The notes under the pieces: model-generated
Seen by the model: the letters and a program-made list of their open reading frames with translations, nothing else
What the model was told of the DNA's origin: nothing
Database searches by the model: none
Position numbers and translations under genes: made by a program
Assembly: GCA_020091685.1 (NCBI GenBank)
Contig: CM034607.1
Location: forward strand, 21,823,253-21,887,252
Direction: 5' to 3'
Source of the DNA: Lutjanus erythropterus
Lineage: Eukaryota > Chordata > Actinopteri > Lutjaniformes > Lutjanidae
DNA length: 64,000 nucleotides
Shown here: positions 21,213 to 27,340 of the stretch, in pieces
How positions within the stretch are numbered: position 1 is the first letter of the stretch
How the letters are laid out: each line of letters opens with the position of its first letter

Positions 21213-23090
21213 ATTCCTGTATAAGGAGACTGATTAATGAAGGCCGTAGTCTTTGGTTTATGAGTGCAAATAGAAGGAAAACTAGCTTTCAAGAATAGAA
21301 GTACGCTTCAGGTTGCACTGATGCATGAGTGATGAAGGCTGATGAAGCTCTGGCCTGCACAGAGCTGGTGCAGACAGCAACATTTGTCCAAATCAAAGTG
21401 TTTCTCTTCAAACAGACAGCTGACTGAAAAATATGGCTTATTCACATCCAGTCGAGACAAACCCTGAGGGAGGGAAGAGATCTGTGCAGCAGTGGTCAGA
21501 ACCAGAAACCTCAAGGCTCTTGAATATGTTAGTGGAGTTCAGTGGCAGACATTTCTGAGAGAGAGCAGAGTGTGGCTGAGGTGGAAACAGCTTTACATGA
21601 CTCCTATAAGGGATCTGGTGATCTACAGAGAAGGATTTTTGGCAGTATTCTCCAATTGTTGTGGTGTTTGTAGAAAAACATGAGAAGAATGTGTGTTAGT
21701 CACTGATATGAACAAAATAGACATTTCTGTTTGCCTGAAATGGCCTCTTGGCATTATTAGCATGCCCCAGTCAAATCAAAGGCACACAGCTAGAGGCACT
21801 GCTAACGGCAAGCTTGTGGGCCAAGCAAATTGGAATAAAAACACTAAGATCACAACCTGACAATAAGAAACGGCGTCAATTTTGCTTGGAGTTCCACCTC
21901 TCTGGGTGTGCATGTGATTGAAAATATGTGTATGTGTTAGAGTGTTTAAATGGAAAATCAATTTATTATGTTACTCCCATTTGAAACAGACAATAAATGA
22001 TTCATACATGAATGTCTCTACTGAAGCTAGACATAAAGTCATAGGGTCAGGCTCATGCTTGAAGACGCTGCTACTCAGCTCACTCAGACACACAACTGAA
22101 TTCTATGTTTGTGAGGACCATCGCTGATATAATTACCTATCCCCTAAAAACCCCCAGACTACAAGCCCAACCCTTACCAAATTCTGACCTCTAAAAAACA
22201 ACTCTTAACCCTTTAACGGCTCTCTAGACAAATTAGGACAAGCCAAAATGTCCTCACTGTCTACACACCAGCACTGTCTGAGGTCAGTTTTCTGTCCCAC
22301 CTCATCTTTCTGAGTGACTGACAGGTGATCTGGCTCCACCCCTCTCTCACCACTCATCACACTTACATATCAGACAGTTATTATGTTGATCTGGCCATCT
22401 TTGATTGTCTGTCTGGCCACCTGCCTGTCAGCCATCCATTTCTGTGTTCATTTTTTATGCCGGTAGAGAAATAAAGAAAATCAAAATAAAAGAAAGAAAA
22501 CAGTTGGTAAAAAGGTGAGGTAAAGAAACACCCGATAGAATTAATTAATAAAAAATATTATTTGAAAGAAAAACTAAAGACGCCAAGGACTTCCTGCATG
22601 TTTCTCCCTCTGTTTGACTATTCTGATTTAAAATACATTAAACACAGTACTTAAAAAAGGTAAAATATGCAGGATTTATTGGTTGCTGTTTGTTAATCCT
22701 CCTCCTGGGTCAACGAATGAGAAGGGCAAAGACAGCAGAACTAAGAAGGATACAGCAGTGAATCAAAAATATTGATTATAATAAATTAATTTTCTAATTG
22801 TTATACAACGGTTTTGTTCTAAAGCAAAAATAAACACAGCCACAGCTCCACCCAACGCTGGATTTTATGTGAATGCAGCCAAAGCAAACCTTTATTCTGT
22901 CACAGTGTCTTCAGTCTGCTCTGTGTGCTCTATGTGTGTATTAAACTTGATTTTCTTAAAAAAAACATATATATACACACAACAGTGACTTGTGGAGCCG
23001 TTTTTGTGTGACAGTTTTACTGAAAACAACAAACCAGAAGTGACACAGATCCAAGGCAAATGGGCCGAATTAGATCATAATTGAAATTAA
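21213..23090. other. 1.9 kb of unique sequence, nothing recognised
   Basis: No gene-like frame, repeat boundary or RNA gene was found. The last part (22940-23090), AT-rich with a TATATATA run at about 22970, lies directly upstream of the P2X7-like exon and could hold its promoter, but no start site can be fixed. Confidence 0.35.
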
Positions 23091-23145
23091 GAAATATGGA
23101 TTCCATTGCTAGTTTTGACTCTGAAGAGGCTGAAAATGTAAATGT

Positions 23146-23811
23146 ATGTCTTATGAATATGATGGATCACAAGCTTATGATTATGAGCCTCCTAGGCATC
23201 AAAGAGACCAGGAACAGAAAAGGTTTAGGAGAAATGATGGTTGCAGGAGATCAATTGTGTCGTGGTGTGAGAAGAATCAGTGGAGAACCGGGCAGGTGTG
23301 CTGGTGAGTGAATGGCGTTAGCTAACAGCAACAACATTGTAAAGTTTGCTATCAGGCCATAGTATATTATATTAGTTAATATTGGTCATCTAATACTGAC
23401 AGGATTATTGATACTTTCCCATACTAGAAACTAATACATGAGTATCAGCTTTTATCAGTCTCATCTCGCATTGCCTTGCCTACCATAAATCCACACACAG
23501 CACCGCAGTGGCAAGAAAGAGAGGGTGAGGGAGAGAGTGACAGAGGGACGGAGACTGAGAGAGAAAGGGATGGAGAGAGGGAGAGGGATGAAGACTGAAA
23601 GAGTAAGATAGAGGGAGAGGGGAGAGAGGGAGACATGAACGACAGTTCCCTGATAAATTTTTTGTTTGTTAGGTGCTGGTGTGGTCAGTGCCAGCCCACG
23701 GCCTCAGCTGTGGAGAGTGTGTGCTGCAGAGAGGTGGATGCTTTCTGGGCCAGAACTGATGCTGATGCTGATGGAGGTGATGAAACAGCGTGTATCAAGG
23801 GAAAAAGCTAA
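23146..23811 (+). CDS. P2X7-like intracellular (ballast) domain gene fragment, two exons
   Basis: Exon 1 (23146-23303) reads MSYEYDGSQAYDYEPPRHQ and continues to a Trp-Cys; it ends at a GTGCTG|GTGAGTG donor. Exon 2 (23673-23811) follows a TTTTTTGTTTGTTAG acceptor. Joining them (52 codons + 2 nt) gives WCWCGQCQPTASAVESVCCR, then an Ala-Cys-Ile, then a TAA stop at 23809. The WCxCGxC...ESxCCxE pattern and the Y-x-(F/Y)-EP stretch before it match the cysteine-rich part of the cytoplasmic P2X7 domain, which in P2X7 binds zinc; fish have many stand-alone genes with this domain. The rest of the domain (the AYR...W and IPSC...R..FP parts) is absent, so the gene is truncated or decayed. The start is uncertain: an ATG at 23097 has a better context and opens a protein-like frame (MDSIASFDSEEAE) in another phase, suggesting a frameshift near 23130-23150. 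The THAP frame lies opposite, converging on the stop. Confidence 0.6.
23515..23640. repeat. purine-rich tract inside the putative P2X7-like intron
   Basis: GAGAGGGAGAGGG-type low-complexity sequence within the 369-bp intron between the two P2X7-like exons. The antisense Ser/Pro/Leu-rich frame here is not a gene. Confidence 0.8.
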
Positions 23812-24075
23812 CAGTCTCACACAGCTCAGGCTCTGAAATCCCATCCTGGACTCTAGCAAATTGCCGGGGGCATAATCCTCCCCTTTAAAATGAGCGCTGC
23901 ACACGACCACCGTTTTAGTTACAGAGGCAGCAGTGAAGTCCTGCGTCTTCACCTGCACAAAACGCACCCAGGAGCAAAAGCGAGCATCCGCTCTTTTCCT
24001 GTCAGGAAAACTGCGGACTAGATGTCCTGACAGGCAGGAGTTTGTGCACCCGTAGCATACACAATGATTCAACAT
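23704..24075 (-). CDS. THAP-type zinc finger protein fragment, 123 aa
   Basis: Starting at the Met at 24075 (MLNHCVCYGC), the frame has the C2CH signature of THAP DNA-binding domains: C5-x4-C10, SFP at 22-24, W36, then VVCSAHF with C59-x2-H62-F63, and a following MGF at 78-80. These match the invariant residues of human THAP1 (C5, C10, P26, W36, C54, H57, F58). An upstream Met at 24111 adds 12 residues that do not belong to the fold. The last box of the domain (AVPT in other members) is missing: after R87-L88-L89 the frame runs antisense to the P2X7-like exon, so residues 90-123 are probably not genuine. No coiled coil or DDE transposase follows. It could be the first exon of a THAP gene, or a remnant of a THAP-bearing DNA transposon. 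Confidence 0.65.
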   Translation of the reverse strand: MLNHCVCYGCTNSCLSGHLVRSFPDRKRADARFCSWVRFVQVKTQDFTAASVTKTVVVCSAHFKGEDYAPGNLLESRMGFQSLSCVRLLAFSLDTRCFITSISISISSGPESIHLSAAHTLHS

Positions 24076-24111
24076 GGACACCACAAGCGAAATGCACTGT
24101 AAAACGACCAA

Positions 24112-25380
24112 CTCAATGAAAGACGATCACTCAGACTTAATACCACCAACTTCTGCATGTTGGTCTGAGGCAGACTCCGGCACAGCCACTTCCTCTTCAT
24201 ACGTAAAATCACACAGCATTAGAAAAAATAGCGCTTTTAAGAGCCTTGCTCAAACAGACCACCTTTTCCTCTGAAATTTTATCCTCATGTCCAAAAAATC
24301 TGTCACACTGTGAGAGATGTTAAAAGATGGCCATTATCACGGTCTTGTGACCAAAGATAACCTGGGACAAAATTTGGGTAACCATCTCTCAATGCGACTG
24401 TGGCTTTGACCTACAGTATGTCTACTAACCAACCTATGGAGATGCTGCATGAAATGATGCAATTGCAACAAGAGAGATAATCTTGACTAGCACTAAAGAA
24501 AATTTCCCACTTTTTTCCGAGACACATAAATGCAAGTATTGCAAGGACTCGAGTCCTGCTTAGCGTCATTTTTTGTCTCTCTAGACAGAGAATGATGATG
24601 CGCGCTGACACATGATGCACGTTAATGACATTTTACTGAGTTGCGTCATAGTCTGCAATCCAGTAGGTTTGATTATTATACGGTCTTCATACCTCAAAAT
24701 TACCAAAACTTATTAGATCCAGATCTTGCACAATGTGGCTTGCAATAAACTAGTAAGATTTCTAAAATCTTACAGTCTATTGGGGGCAAAACTTGGCAGG
24801 TTTAATAAGAAAAAAATAATACACAGGACACAGAGATGTAACGTTCAAAAACCAGCAGCAAAAGCTTATTTTTCTCCCACAAGTCAAAATTTAAGAGAAA
24901 CGTATCTCACTGAACTGAGGGGACACACTACCTCACATTCAGAGGCCTTTTAAATCACGATGTTATGATGGTGGAGAGCCCAGTGGCATCGACCATCAGC
25001 CCGACCCGACTGTGTGATTGTGTCTCTGCTGCTCTCACAAACAGCAAGCACAGGAGAGAGGCTATAGACAGCAGTGTAATTGTTGGTCACTACAAGTTCC
25101 CGCCCTCACATTCGCAACCAGATACTTCAGCTTCACACAGCTGTCCAAACGCCGCTGCCCAGAAATGTCCTGAGTACAGCAAAATAATGAGAAAATAAGA
25201 GAGCAGAGTCTCTGCAGATAGAGACATCACCACACACTTCTAGGGGGTCAAAAGTGACGACTGAGAGGGGATTATTCTTCCAGCTGTATGTACTTTATCT
25301 TAAGCAAAACTGTGCATAGTACCCCTTAAATAAGTTTACATATTTGAGGAAAAATAAGGCAAATTAGGACTTTTTATTGT
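24112..25380. other. sequence upstream of the THAP frame, not classified
   Basis: On the - strand just upstream (about 24240-24145) a short acidic frame, FTYEEEVAVPESASDQHAEV, ends in a stop 60-70 bp before the THAP start; it is protein-like but unidentified and may be an upstream exon or part of the same element. A 77-codon + frame at 24965-25198 and a 75-codon frame at 24726-24953 are unrecognised. No transposase motif was seen. Confidence 0.3.
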
Positions 25381-25520
25381 GCTGGCAGCCCTGAGATGAA
25401 CTGGTGACTTGTCCAGGGTATACCCCGCCTCTCGCCCAATGTCAACTGGTATAGGCTCCAATGCCCCTGTGACCCATCAAGGATAAGTAGTTAAGGACAG
25501 TGGATGGATGGATGGATGAA
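25381..25520 (+). mobile_element. LINE 3' end with (GGAT)n tail
   Basis: It reads GATGAACTGGTGACTTGTCC AGGGTATACCCCGCCTCTCGCCCAATG, then GATAGGCTCCA-like sequence, a GTGACCC block, and GATGGATGGATGGATG. This is a very common 3' end of fish non-LTR retrotransposons of the L2/Maui kind. Only the 3' end is present. Confidence 0.75.
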
Positions 25521-27340
25521 ATTATTTGCCGTTTTCACACTCATGGGCGATGACAGCAGCCAAAATCAAATCTTTGCTCCTAGTCAGACAGGTAAAGAGT
25601 ATAAGCCAGTTTCCCCTCACTGTCCTTTCAGAAAGCACTTAACCCTGACTAGTCCAACAAAGCCAAAGCCCATCTAAGCAATGTCATGGATTCATATTTG
25701 TCCTAGATCCCCACTGAGTATTTTGCTTTTTGAGTGTCTGTGACTTTATTTTGAATAATGCAATTCAAAGTCAGTCACACACACACGCGCGCACACACAA
25801 AAAACTCTCTTACAAACTCACATAAGAAATCAATCCATCTCTGAGTGTGCAGGATGTAAGAAATCCTAAAGTTCTTCATTAGCATTTTCTTTAGGCTCCT
25901 GTATTGTTCTGAATAAAACATTGCTTAGTTTCCAGCTGTATTCAAGCTGTGAGTGAGTGTGATGGTTTGACTTAGTGTGTATGTGTGTGTGGTTTCAGGT
26001 GTGTGGGTGGGTGAGTGTGTGTGTGTATCCTTGGGGTACCAACCTATTGGAATTCATTGCTCTAGGCTGCATGTCCTCTACTTGTTCTCACACACAAACA
26101 CACACACATACACAAATACACAAATACACACTCGCCGTGTCTGCTGAACGTGACCCGGCATATCAGCTATTATGTCAAGCCAAGGGACCTGTAAGTGTGT
26201 CCACGCATTGTGTGTGTGTGTGTGTGTGTGTTGCCTTCAGCTCATTTTCTTTTCCTTTGATGACGACTTATCAATTTTAATTTGTCTTGGTGCAACTGGT
26301 GCAGGGAACTGTACATTTAACAAACCTCGCATATTTGCTGACACAATGCAATGCAATACAATGCAAAATATAAATCAAACCATCTGCGTTCCATTTTTTT
26401 TTGCCAGGTTTTCAAGATGTTAAAGGTATATGGTGGTTTTCAATTTCAGTGAATTTCTGACCGCAACAAAATCAATTCAAACATTCTTTTCATGTTCTTG
26501 TACTTCTGAACCTATCAATCTGAGAGCAGGTTTCTTTCATTTTTCTTCCTCACAAGTTGTTTTTTATGGGCATGTTTTATTTCAGACGATACTGATGTTC
26601 AGAATCAATGTGTATTCAATCTAGATTCATGCATTAATATTCAGGTGGCGTATTACAGCACACACAGAGATGAAACTGCATAGTCCAGATGTAAGAGGTG
26701 GAAATTCAATGCCACCCATTTACTTTTTTTTTTTTTTGCAATGCAGCATAAAAAATGTGAAACTAATGACAGAGGCAAGAGCTATAATTTGTTCTTTTGC
26801 TCATACATGTGATGCACAGAGGGGGGCTAAAGAGGCTGGGTGTAACCCACACATATAATATATGTTATAATATATGTTACTGAAAGCTGCACAATTTTCA
26901 TGATTTTTTCACTGATCTTAAAACCTCTTTTTAATACCTCGTCTACAGCAGGAAGCTGGTATACTGCTGCTTTTCCCTTTGTCAGGTTTAGAATACAAAA
27001 CTTTTACGTGTAGCAGAGTAGCAGGGCAGGGTTTGTTGTTGTTTGTAAATGTGTGTCTTTCTTGGTGTGTGAGGGGTAGTTAGGTTACTATAGTCGTGAA
27101 GTGTGTGGATAGGCTCAGGTTGCAGTTGAGTAGTTATTGAAAGGCTGTGTGCTGTGTTTGCTGCCACAGAGAAGAAATGAAAAGTCCCGTTTACGTAACG
27201 TTACAGCAGAATTGGTTCAGACTATGAACAGCTAGTTAAAAGCTATGAGTCAGACTACAGTAAATTAAAACAGGAGGGCAGAGTAACAAATGCAATCAGA
27301 TGATTGATTGTGTAATTGTTCCTTTTCTTTTGTGATTTCT
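25521..27340. other. unique sequence with CA/GT microsatellites
   Basis: It holds CA-rich tracts at about 25778-25800 and 26088-26132, a (GT)n run at 26209-26231, and a poly-T at 26726-26738. Cys/Val-rich or His/Thr-rich frames at 25975-26423 are microsatellite translations. Nothing else was recognised. Confidence 0.5.

Follow-up and report, generated by a model that had tools for sequence, protein, structure and literature searches.

A probable old, internally deleted Kolobok-type transposon copy with P2X7-like and THAP gene remnants tail to tail in Lutjanus erythropterus

The P2X7-like and THAP sequences that lie tail to tail at this locus very probably belong to one Kolobok-type DNA transposon of the cut-and-paste class, in an old, mutated, and internally deleted copy; its lineage is most likely Kol0. 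The window, the whole 64,000-nucleotide stretch analyzed here, lies on contig C17 of the 937.6-Mb assembly (G000) that served as the search genome. The transposon copy occupies about 22943-24301 by blastn comparison with its relatives, and its terminal repeats are unrecognizable at both ends. When 37 loci were compared with window 22000-26000, the left edge was reached furthest at 22928 (L042) and 22943 (L032 and L038), and the right limit fell at 24297-24301 in 25 of the 37 and between 24066 and 24322 in the other 12; these loci had been picked through their matches, so alignment of all 37 is expected. The aligned pieces are 63-92% identical to the window, a level of divergence that fits an old copy.

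The former ends of the copy can no longer be made out. A search of the window for the terminal repeat, made with the family-A word only and allowing up to 3 mismatches, found none, and no TTAA duplication is visible at the copy. Continuation with relatives to the left of 22943 was at chance in all three tried. To the right of 24301, L010, L019, and L017 gave no more than chance similarity, and the other two of the five relatives were marginal, with 15 (L035) and 30 (L048) of 500 shuffles scoring equally well. The loss of recognizable ends probably makes the window copy immobile now. A 13-bp direct repeat (12/13 identical) is found at 22896-22908, just outside the left limit, and at 24299-24311, across the right limit. 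It was rejected as a target duplication, since its sequence is not TTAA and part of it, 24299-24301, belongs to the family; it is probably due to chance.

The window copy has many relatives in the genome, and the longer ones are TTAA-target transposons with a P2X7-like gene at one end and a THAP gene at the other, running convergently. The segment 23600-24111 has at least 68 DNA matches (40 of 122 candidates scored), and the THAP open reading frame has at least 107 protein matches. Loci were taken from 20 places as 8-kb stretches and from three of 10 near-identical young copies as 5-kb stretches. The flanks of the relatives extend beyond 24301 to a terminal repeat ending in AACCTGCAAGTTACACTTTAA, with the left mirror TTAAAG.GTAACTTGCAGGTT. 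TTAA adjoins 29 of the 34 terminal-repeat ends detected with at most one mismatch in 40 loci, compared to a background of 0.76%; the remaining five ends are those of L014, L019, L028, L035, and L038. Six end pairs are flanked by TTAA at left and right and enclose complete units of 510 bp (L013), 551 bp (L022), 551 bp (L023), 936 bp (L018), 1,271 bp (L016), and 3,866 bp (L061), although L022 and L023 are largely duplicates with 82% of 31-mers in common. L061 is a complete 3,866-bp unit with 24-nt inverted ends and is 99.5% identical to L060, in which KolX, the P2X7-like gene, and the THAP gene are convergent. Ten genome copies match the THAP frame of L060 at 98-100%, and this 3.87-kb family has recently spread. 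In nine of the 10 young copies, a convergent P2RX7_C match is listed on the other strand at a distance of about 1.5 kb, and none is listed for the copy at C6:40267382. The KolX-type exons are open in L060, and the THAP gene is split over two frames in both copies with frames listed (L059 and L060).

The P2X7-like block on the + strand is the damaged 5' part of a KolX gene. Exon 1 (23096-23303) has MDSIASFDSEEAENV and YEYDGSQAYDYEP in different frames, where the L060 counterpart reads as one frame, MDRDHNSDTEETFNVHNYSYDGPQPYNYEP. It is followed by a probable intron (23304-23672, GTGAGT...TAG) with a GA-rich repeat inside it (23515-23626); in L060, the places corresponding to the window splice retain GT for the donor and AG for the acceptor. 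Splicing 23303 to 23673 gives ...GQVCWCWCGQC...ESVCCREVDAFWA, and the KolX reading across this splice up to the joint is GQVCWCWCGQCQPTASAVESVCCREVDAFWA. The start of exon 2 (23673-23750, +, CWCGQC...ESVCCREVDAFW) is truncated by the deletion, and its continuation in L060, where exon 1 lies at 27-226 and exon 2 begins at 515 on the + strand, is ALVDSVTPRLEVQCVTQHPGF. The open exon 23599-23811 matches P2RX7_C of Pfam with an E value of 0.0016 and 18.8 bits, under the cut-off of 23.5, and, compared alone with solved structures at E up to 10, it retrieved thioredoxin-type chains and no P2X7 chain. This weak match gains backing because a later exon of the same gene in L060 (frame 1335-1529) matches P2RX7_C above the cut-off (E 1.8e-9, 38.2 bits); compared with solved structures at E up to 1, that exon retrieved P2X7 chains only. 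Exon 2 of L060 alone gave an E value of 0.034 with P2RX7_C, L060 375-752 gave one unrelated match (E 0.2) among solved structures, and the sole passing join of the full KolX exons in L060 did not use the P2RX7_C frame.

The THAP block on the - strand is a remnant of the second gene, running from a methionine at 24075 down to the joint (23752-24075). The - strand frame 23704-24126 matches the Pfam THAP profile over positions 1-61 of 87 (E 7.7e-6, 27 bits, cut-off 23.9). The initial annotation had THAP similarity ending at R-L-L; the gene sequence in fact continues out of frame, and the core seems to end there owing to a gap of 5 bases, with the AVPTIF-type box now in another frame. The remnant of this box (23784-23807, -) reads LFPLIHAV, corresponding to AGAVPLKHTV in L017. 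The - strand sense of L017 at this place is VRLIAGAVPLKHTVSSPP; the window is 5 bases short there, and another window frame gives LFPLIHAVSSPP. Elsewhere, the box is GAVPSVH in L034, L046, and L055 and AGAVPLKH in L017. The THAP match extends over profile positions 4-87 in L034 (E 3.1e-8, Pfam) and 20-87 in the - strand frame 2959-3372 of L060 (E 1.2e-7). The order first annotated, P2X7-like on the + strand and THAP on the - strand, tail to tail, is real, with THAP above its cut-off and the weaker P2RX7_C match backed by L060.

The two arms meet at a deletion joint at 23746-23751, where TG.GC is common to both sides. In blastn, the left arm (window 23597-23750) matches L059 336-488 and the right arm (window 23749-24300) matches L059 2940-3496, and as the arms align to these separated stretches, about 2.45 kb is missing in the window; in the 3,866-bp relative, this sequence is present between the two genes. 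Left-arm similarity to L059 and L060 stops at 23750, and right-arm similarity starts within 23748-23752 in L034 (23752), L046 (23748), L055 (23749), L059, L060, and L061. The alignment with L017 extends to about 23735 with TG.GC at 23747-23751 on both sides, and the joint is accordingly put at 23746-23751. For segment 23752-23811, the score of 7.0 against the sequence that follows in the KolX exon is no better than chance (the shuffles average 6.99, and 1169 of 2000 do as well), compared to 15-20 with four THAP-side relatives (0, 0, 1, and 1 of 2000 shuffles doing as well). The THAP side of the closer relative L017 gives 42, with 16 the highest value among 1000 shuffles. Under the scoring used for L017, and without shuffles, 23690-23751 reaches 39 with KolX exon 2 of L060 and 11 with L017, and 23752-23811 reaches 11 with KolX exon 2. 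Judged by these alignments, everything to the right of the joint is THAP-gene sequence. The breakpoint at 23796-23809 proposed in the initial annotation was thus not borne out, the comparison with relatives placing the joint about 50 bp away. The supposed end of P2X7 similarity at Ala-Cys-Ile lies past the true joint, and the + open frame reads A-C-I because it crosses that joint into THAP antisense. Likewise, the 34 residues after the THAP core had been taken as the antisense of the P2X7-like exon, which holds for about 23750-23704; over half of them are THAP gene in a shifted frame.

Could an inversion or a nested insertion, breaking at 23796-23809, instead have brought together two unrelated gene or transposon fragments? 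Each block is cut short, the two run on opposite strands, and the exact joint is found in the window copy only, as such an event would leave them. We nevertheless regard this origin as highly improbable, since in relatives the two genes occur in this order within one TTAA-bounded unit, and similarity on the THAP side passes 23796-23809 on to about 23750. The THAP side is continuous across the point in L017, L034, L046, L055, and L059-L061. The suggestion of a transposon fragment therefore stands, and inverted joining gives way to convergent genes in one unit with an internal deletion. As for the same junction elsewhere, query 23690-23812 has two matches in the genome, its own full-length match in the window and the L017 place over 23746-23803 only (90%), and the joint is private to the window copy as far as this search shows. 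A different joint, from window 23696 to about 23905, is common to 12 of 12 copies examined by eye and chosen from the 37 loci for having both arms visible, which points to one founding deletion that later spread.

By the structure of its relatives, the element most likely falls in the Kol0 group of Kolobok. Kolobok transposons are described as inserting at TTAA and having 5'-RR ends. Elements of the Kol0 group encode two proteins, a DDD/E transposase and KolX; KolX is reported to have the P2X7 cytoplasmic ballast fold, and P2X7 and nanor are proposed to derive from it (Kojima and Bao 2022, PMC9587614). The usual motifs of Kolobok transposases are DDE, THAP with an AVPTIF box, and H2CH (PMC6004289). 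Our relatives share with the published Kol0 elements the 4-bp TTAA target duplication, 5'-RR...YY-3' termini (purine-purine, families A and B both starting AG after TTAA), KolX with the P2X7 ballast domain (via L060, the window exon being under the cut-off), and a THAP-domain second gene with the AVPTIF-type box, which is usual but not universal in Kolobok and is out of frame in the window. The window copy differs in being short and in having lost its ends and the middle of both genes. A DDE core, which in Kolobok comes with C/DxxH, was not located: five segments of longer relatives were scanned against Pfam, and only the THAP segment matched. Of the segments that follow THAP in L034 and L046, two from each were scanned and matched no Pfam family. 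One of these post-THAP segments recurs stop-free in four other places at 95-97%, with convergent P2RX7_C matches at 0.65, 0.65, 2.7, and 6.6 kb, although two of the four (on C6 and C153) seem to be duplicates. The intact parent would carry the DDE core, and the putative filing under Kol0 is strong by structure. The initial annotation raised the prospect of an undescribed composite element. This kind of element, KolX with a transposase of the Kol0 Kolobok lineage, is already in print (PMC9587614), and the window copy is a degenerate non-autonomous member of it, an ordinary fossil. Among papers found with two or more of the terms KolX, Kolobok, and P2X7, KolX occurs in PMC9587614 only.

Other mobile elements with TTAA targets or THAP domains fit less well. 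piggyBac, another TTAA superfamily, also makes TTAA duplications, and a few of its families have a KolX-like C-terminal part (PMC9587614), but a piggyBac element with a KolX-like partner is very unlikely here. The ends start with AG, the RR type given for Kolobok, where piggyBac would combine TTAA with termini other than 5'-RR; most of the seven cysteines are reported absent from KolX-like piggyBac proteins (PMC9587614), whereas the cysteine motif is present here; and THAP is a usual Kolobok transposase domain (PMC6004289). ISL2EU, suggested by THAP with a second gene, also has two genes, the transposase among them being able to carry THAP, but its AT target duplications, GG ends, and YqaJ partner (PMC4482050, PMC9179366) differ from the TTAA, AG, and KolX found here. 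This identity was rejected on the TTAA target and AG ends of the relatives, and YqaJ had no match in the 12 relative segments scanned. The T2-type MITEs of Xenopus, presumed non-autonomous Kolobok elements (PMC6004289), are similarly short with TTAA and AG-type ends, but T2 ends are AGGRR (PMC6004289), compared to AGTGTAAC in family A and AGAGCA in family B, and the short units here retain stretches of the KolX and THAP genes.

Stand-alone proteins with the cysteine domain are known from host genomes. ZCD proteins of this kind occur in fish, and a tick protein combines ZCD with an N-terminal domain printed as "TAHP" (Rump and others, PMC7016195). Fish nanor and the tick protein resemble the block here in having the cysteine domain without the P2X channel part; they are described as host genes (PMC7016195), whereas the block here lies in a repeated mobile element. 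A functional host pair with overlapping ends, a nanor-like gene and a THAP gene, would have these fish genes as a precedent, yet the frame change in KolX exon 1, the loss of the remaining KolX exons, the AVP box lying in another frame, and the abundance of diverged copies of this gene pair leave it with hardly any credibility. In such a genome, neighboring P2X7-like and THAP matches are best read as Kolobok debris, not as fragments of receptor or host genes, which aids annotation. The Kolobok reading also agrees with the published KolX origin of the P2X7 ballast domain (PMC9587614) and adds no new test of it.

The window copy very probably arose through loss of the middle of a complete element. 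In the complete kind, two genes run toward each other: the left end carries KolX, a zinc protein bearing the P2X7 ballast domain, and the right end carries the gene of a transposase with THAP. With the middle gone, their 5' ends were left tail to tail. The deletion may have occurred at the short shared sequence during transposition or repair. Deleted copies would produce no transposase but could be moved in trans by the enzyme of other copies while their ends were intact; short forms may thus have spread via the transposase of longer copies and decayed later. An accessory role, in which the recently spread 3.87-kb family keeps KolX-type exons open beside its split THAP gene because KolX, in cis or in trans, aids movement or persistence with an outside transposase, seems unlikely.

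Several further loci were observed in passing. L011, L016 (3195-4465), and L018 (3498-4433) each contain two inverted short-form pieces, with the terminal repeat and adjoining TTAA at both outer ends in L016 and L018, and look like foldback-type derivatives. The top of the 46 P2RX7_C matches in the genome (C9:12777128-12777592, E 4.5e-64, positions 32-192) has a match to positions 1-46 on the same strand about 1.1 kb away (C9:12778721-12778858), and this locus is probably the real P2X7 gene. The other P2RX7_C matches look like KolX copies. Those at C4:39748984, C1:48218491, and C5:1912120 cover positions from 74-191 to 87-191 in stop-free frames of 139-181 aa and are possibly intact KolX genes of other Kolobok families. 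In the window itself, a tandem array of about seven copies of a 55-56-bp unit lies at 868-1261.
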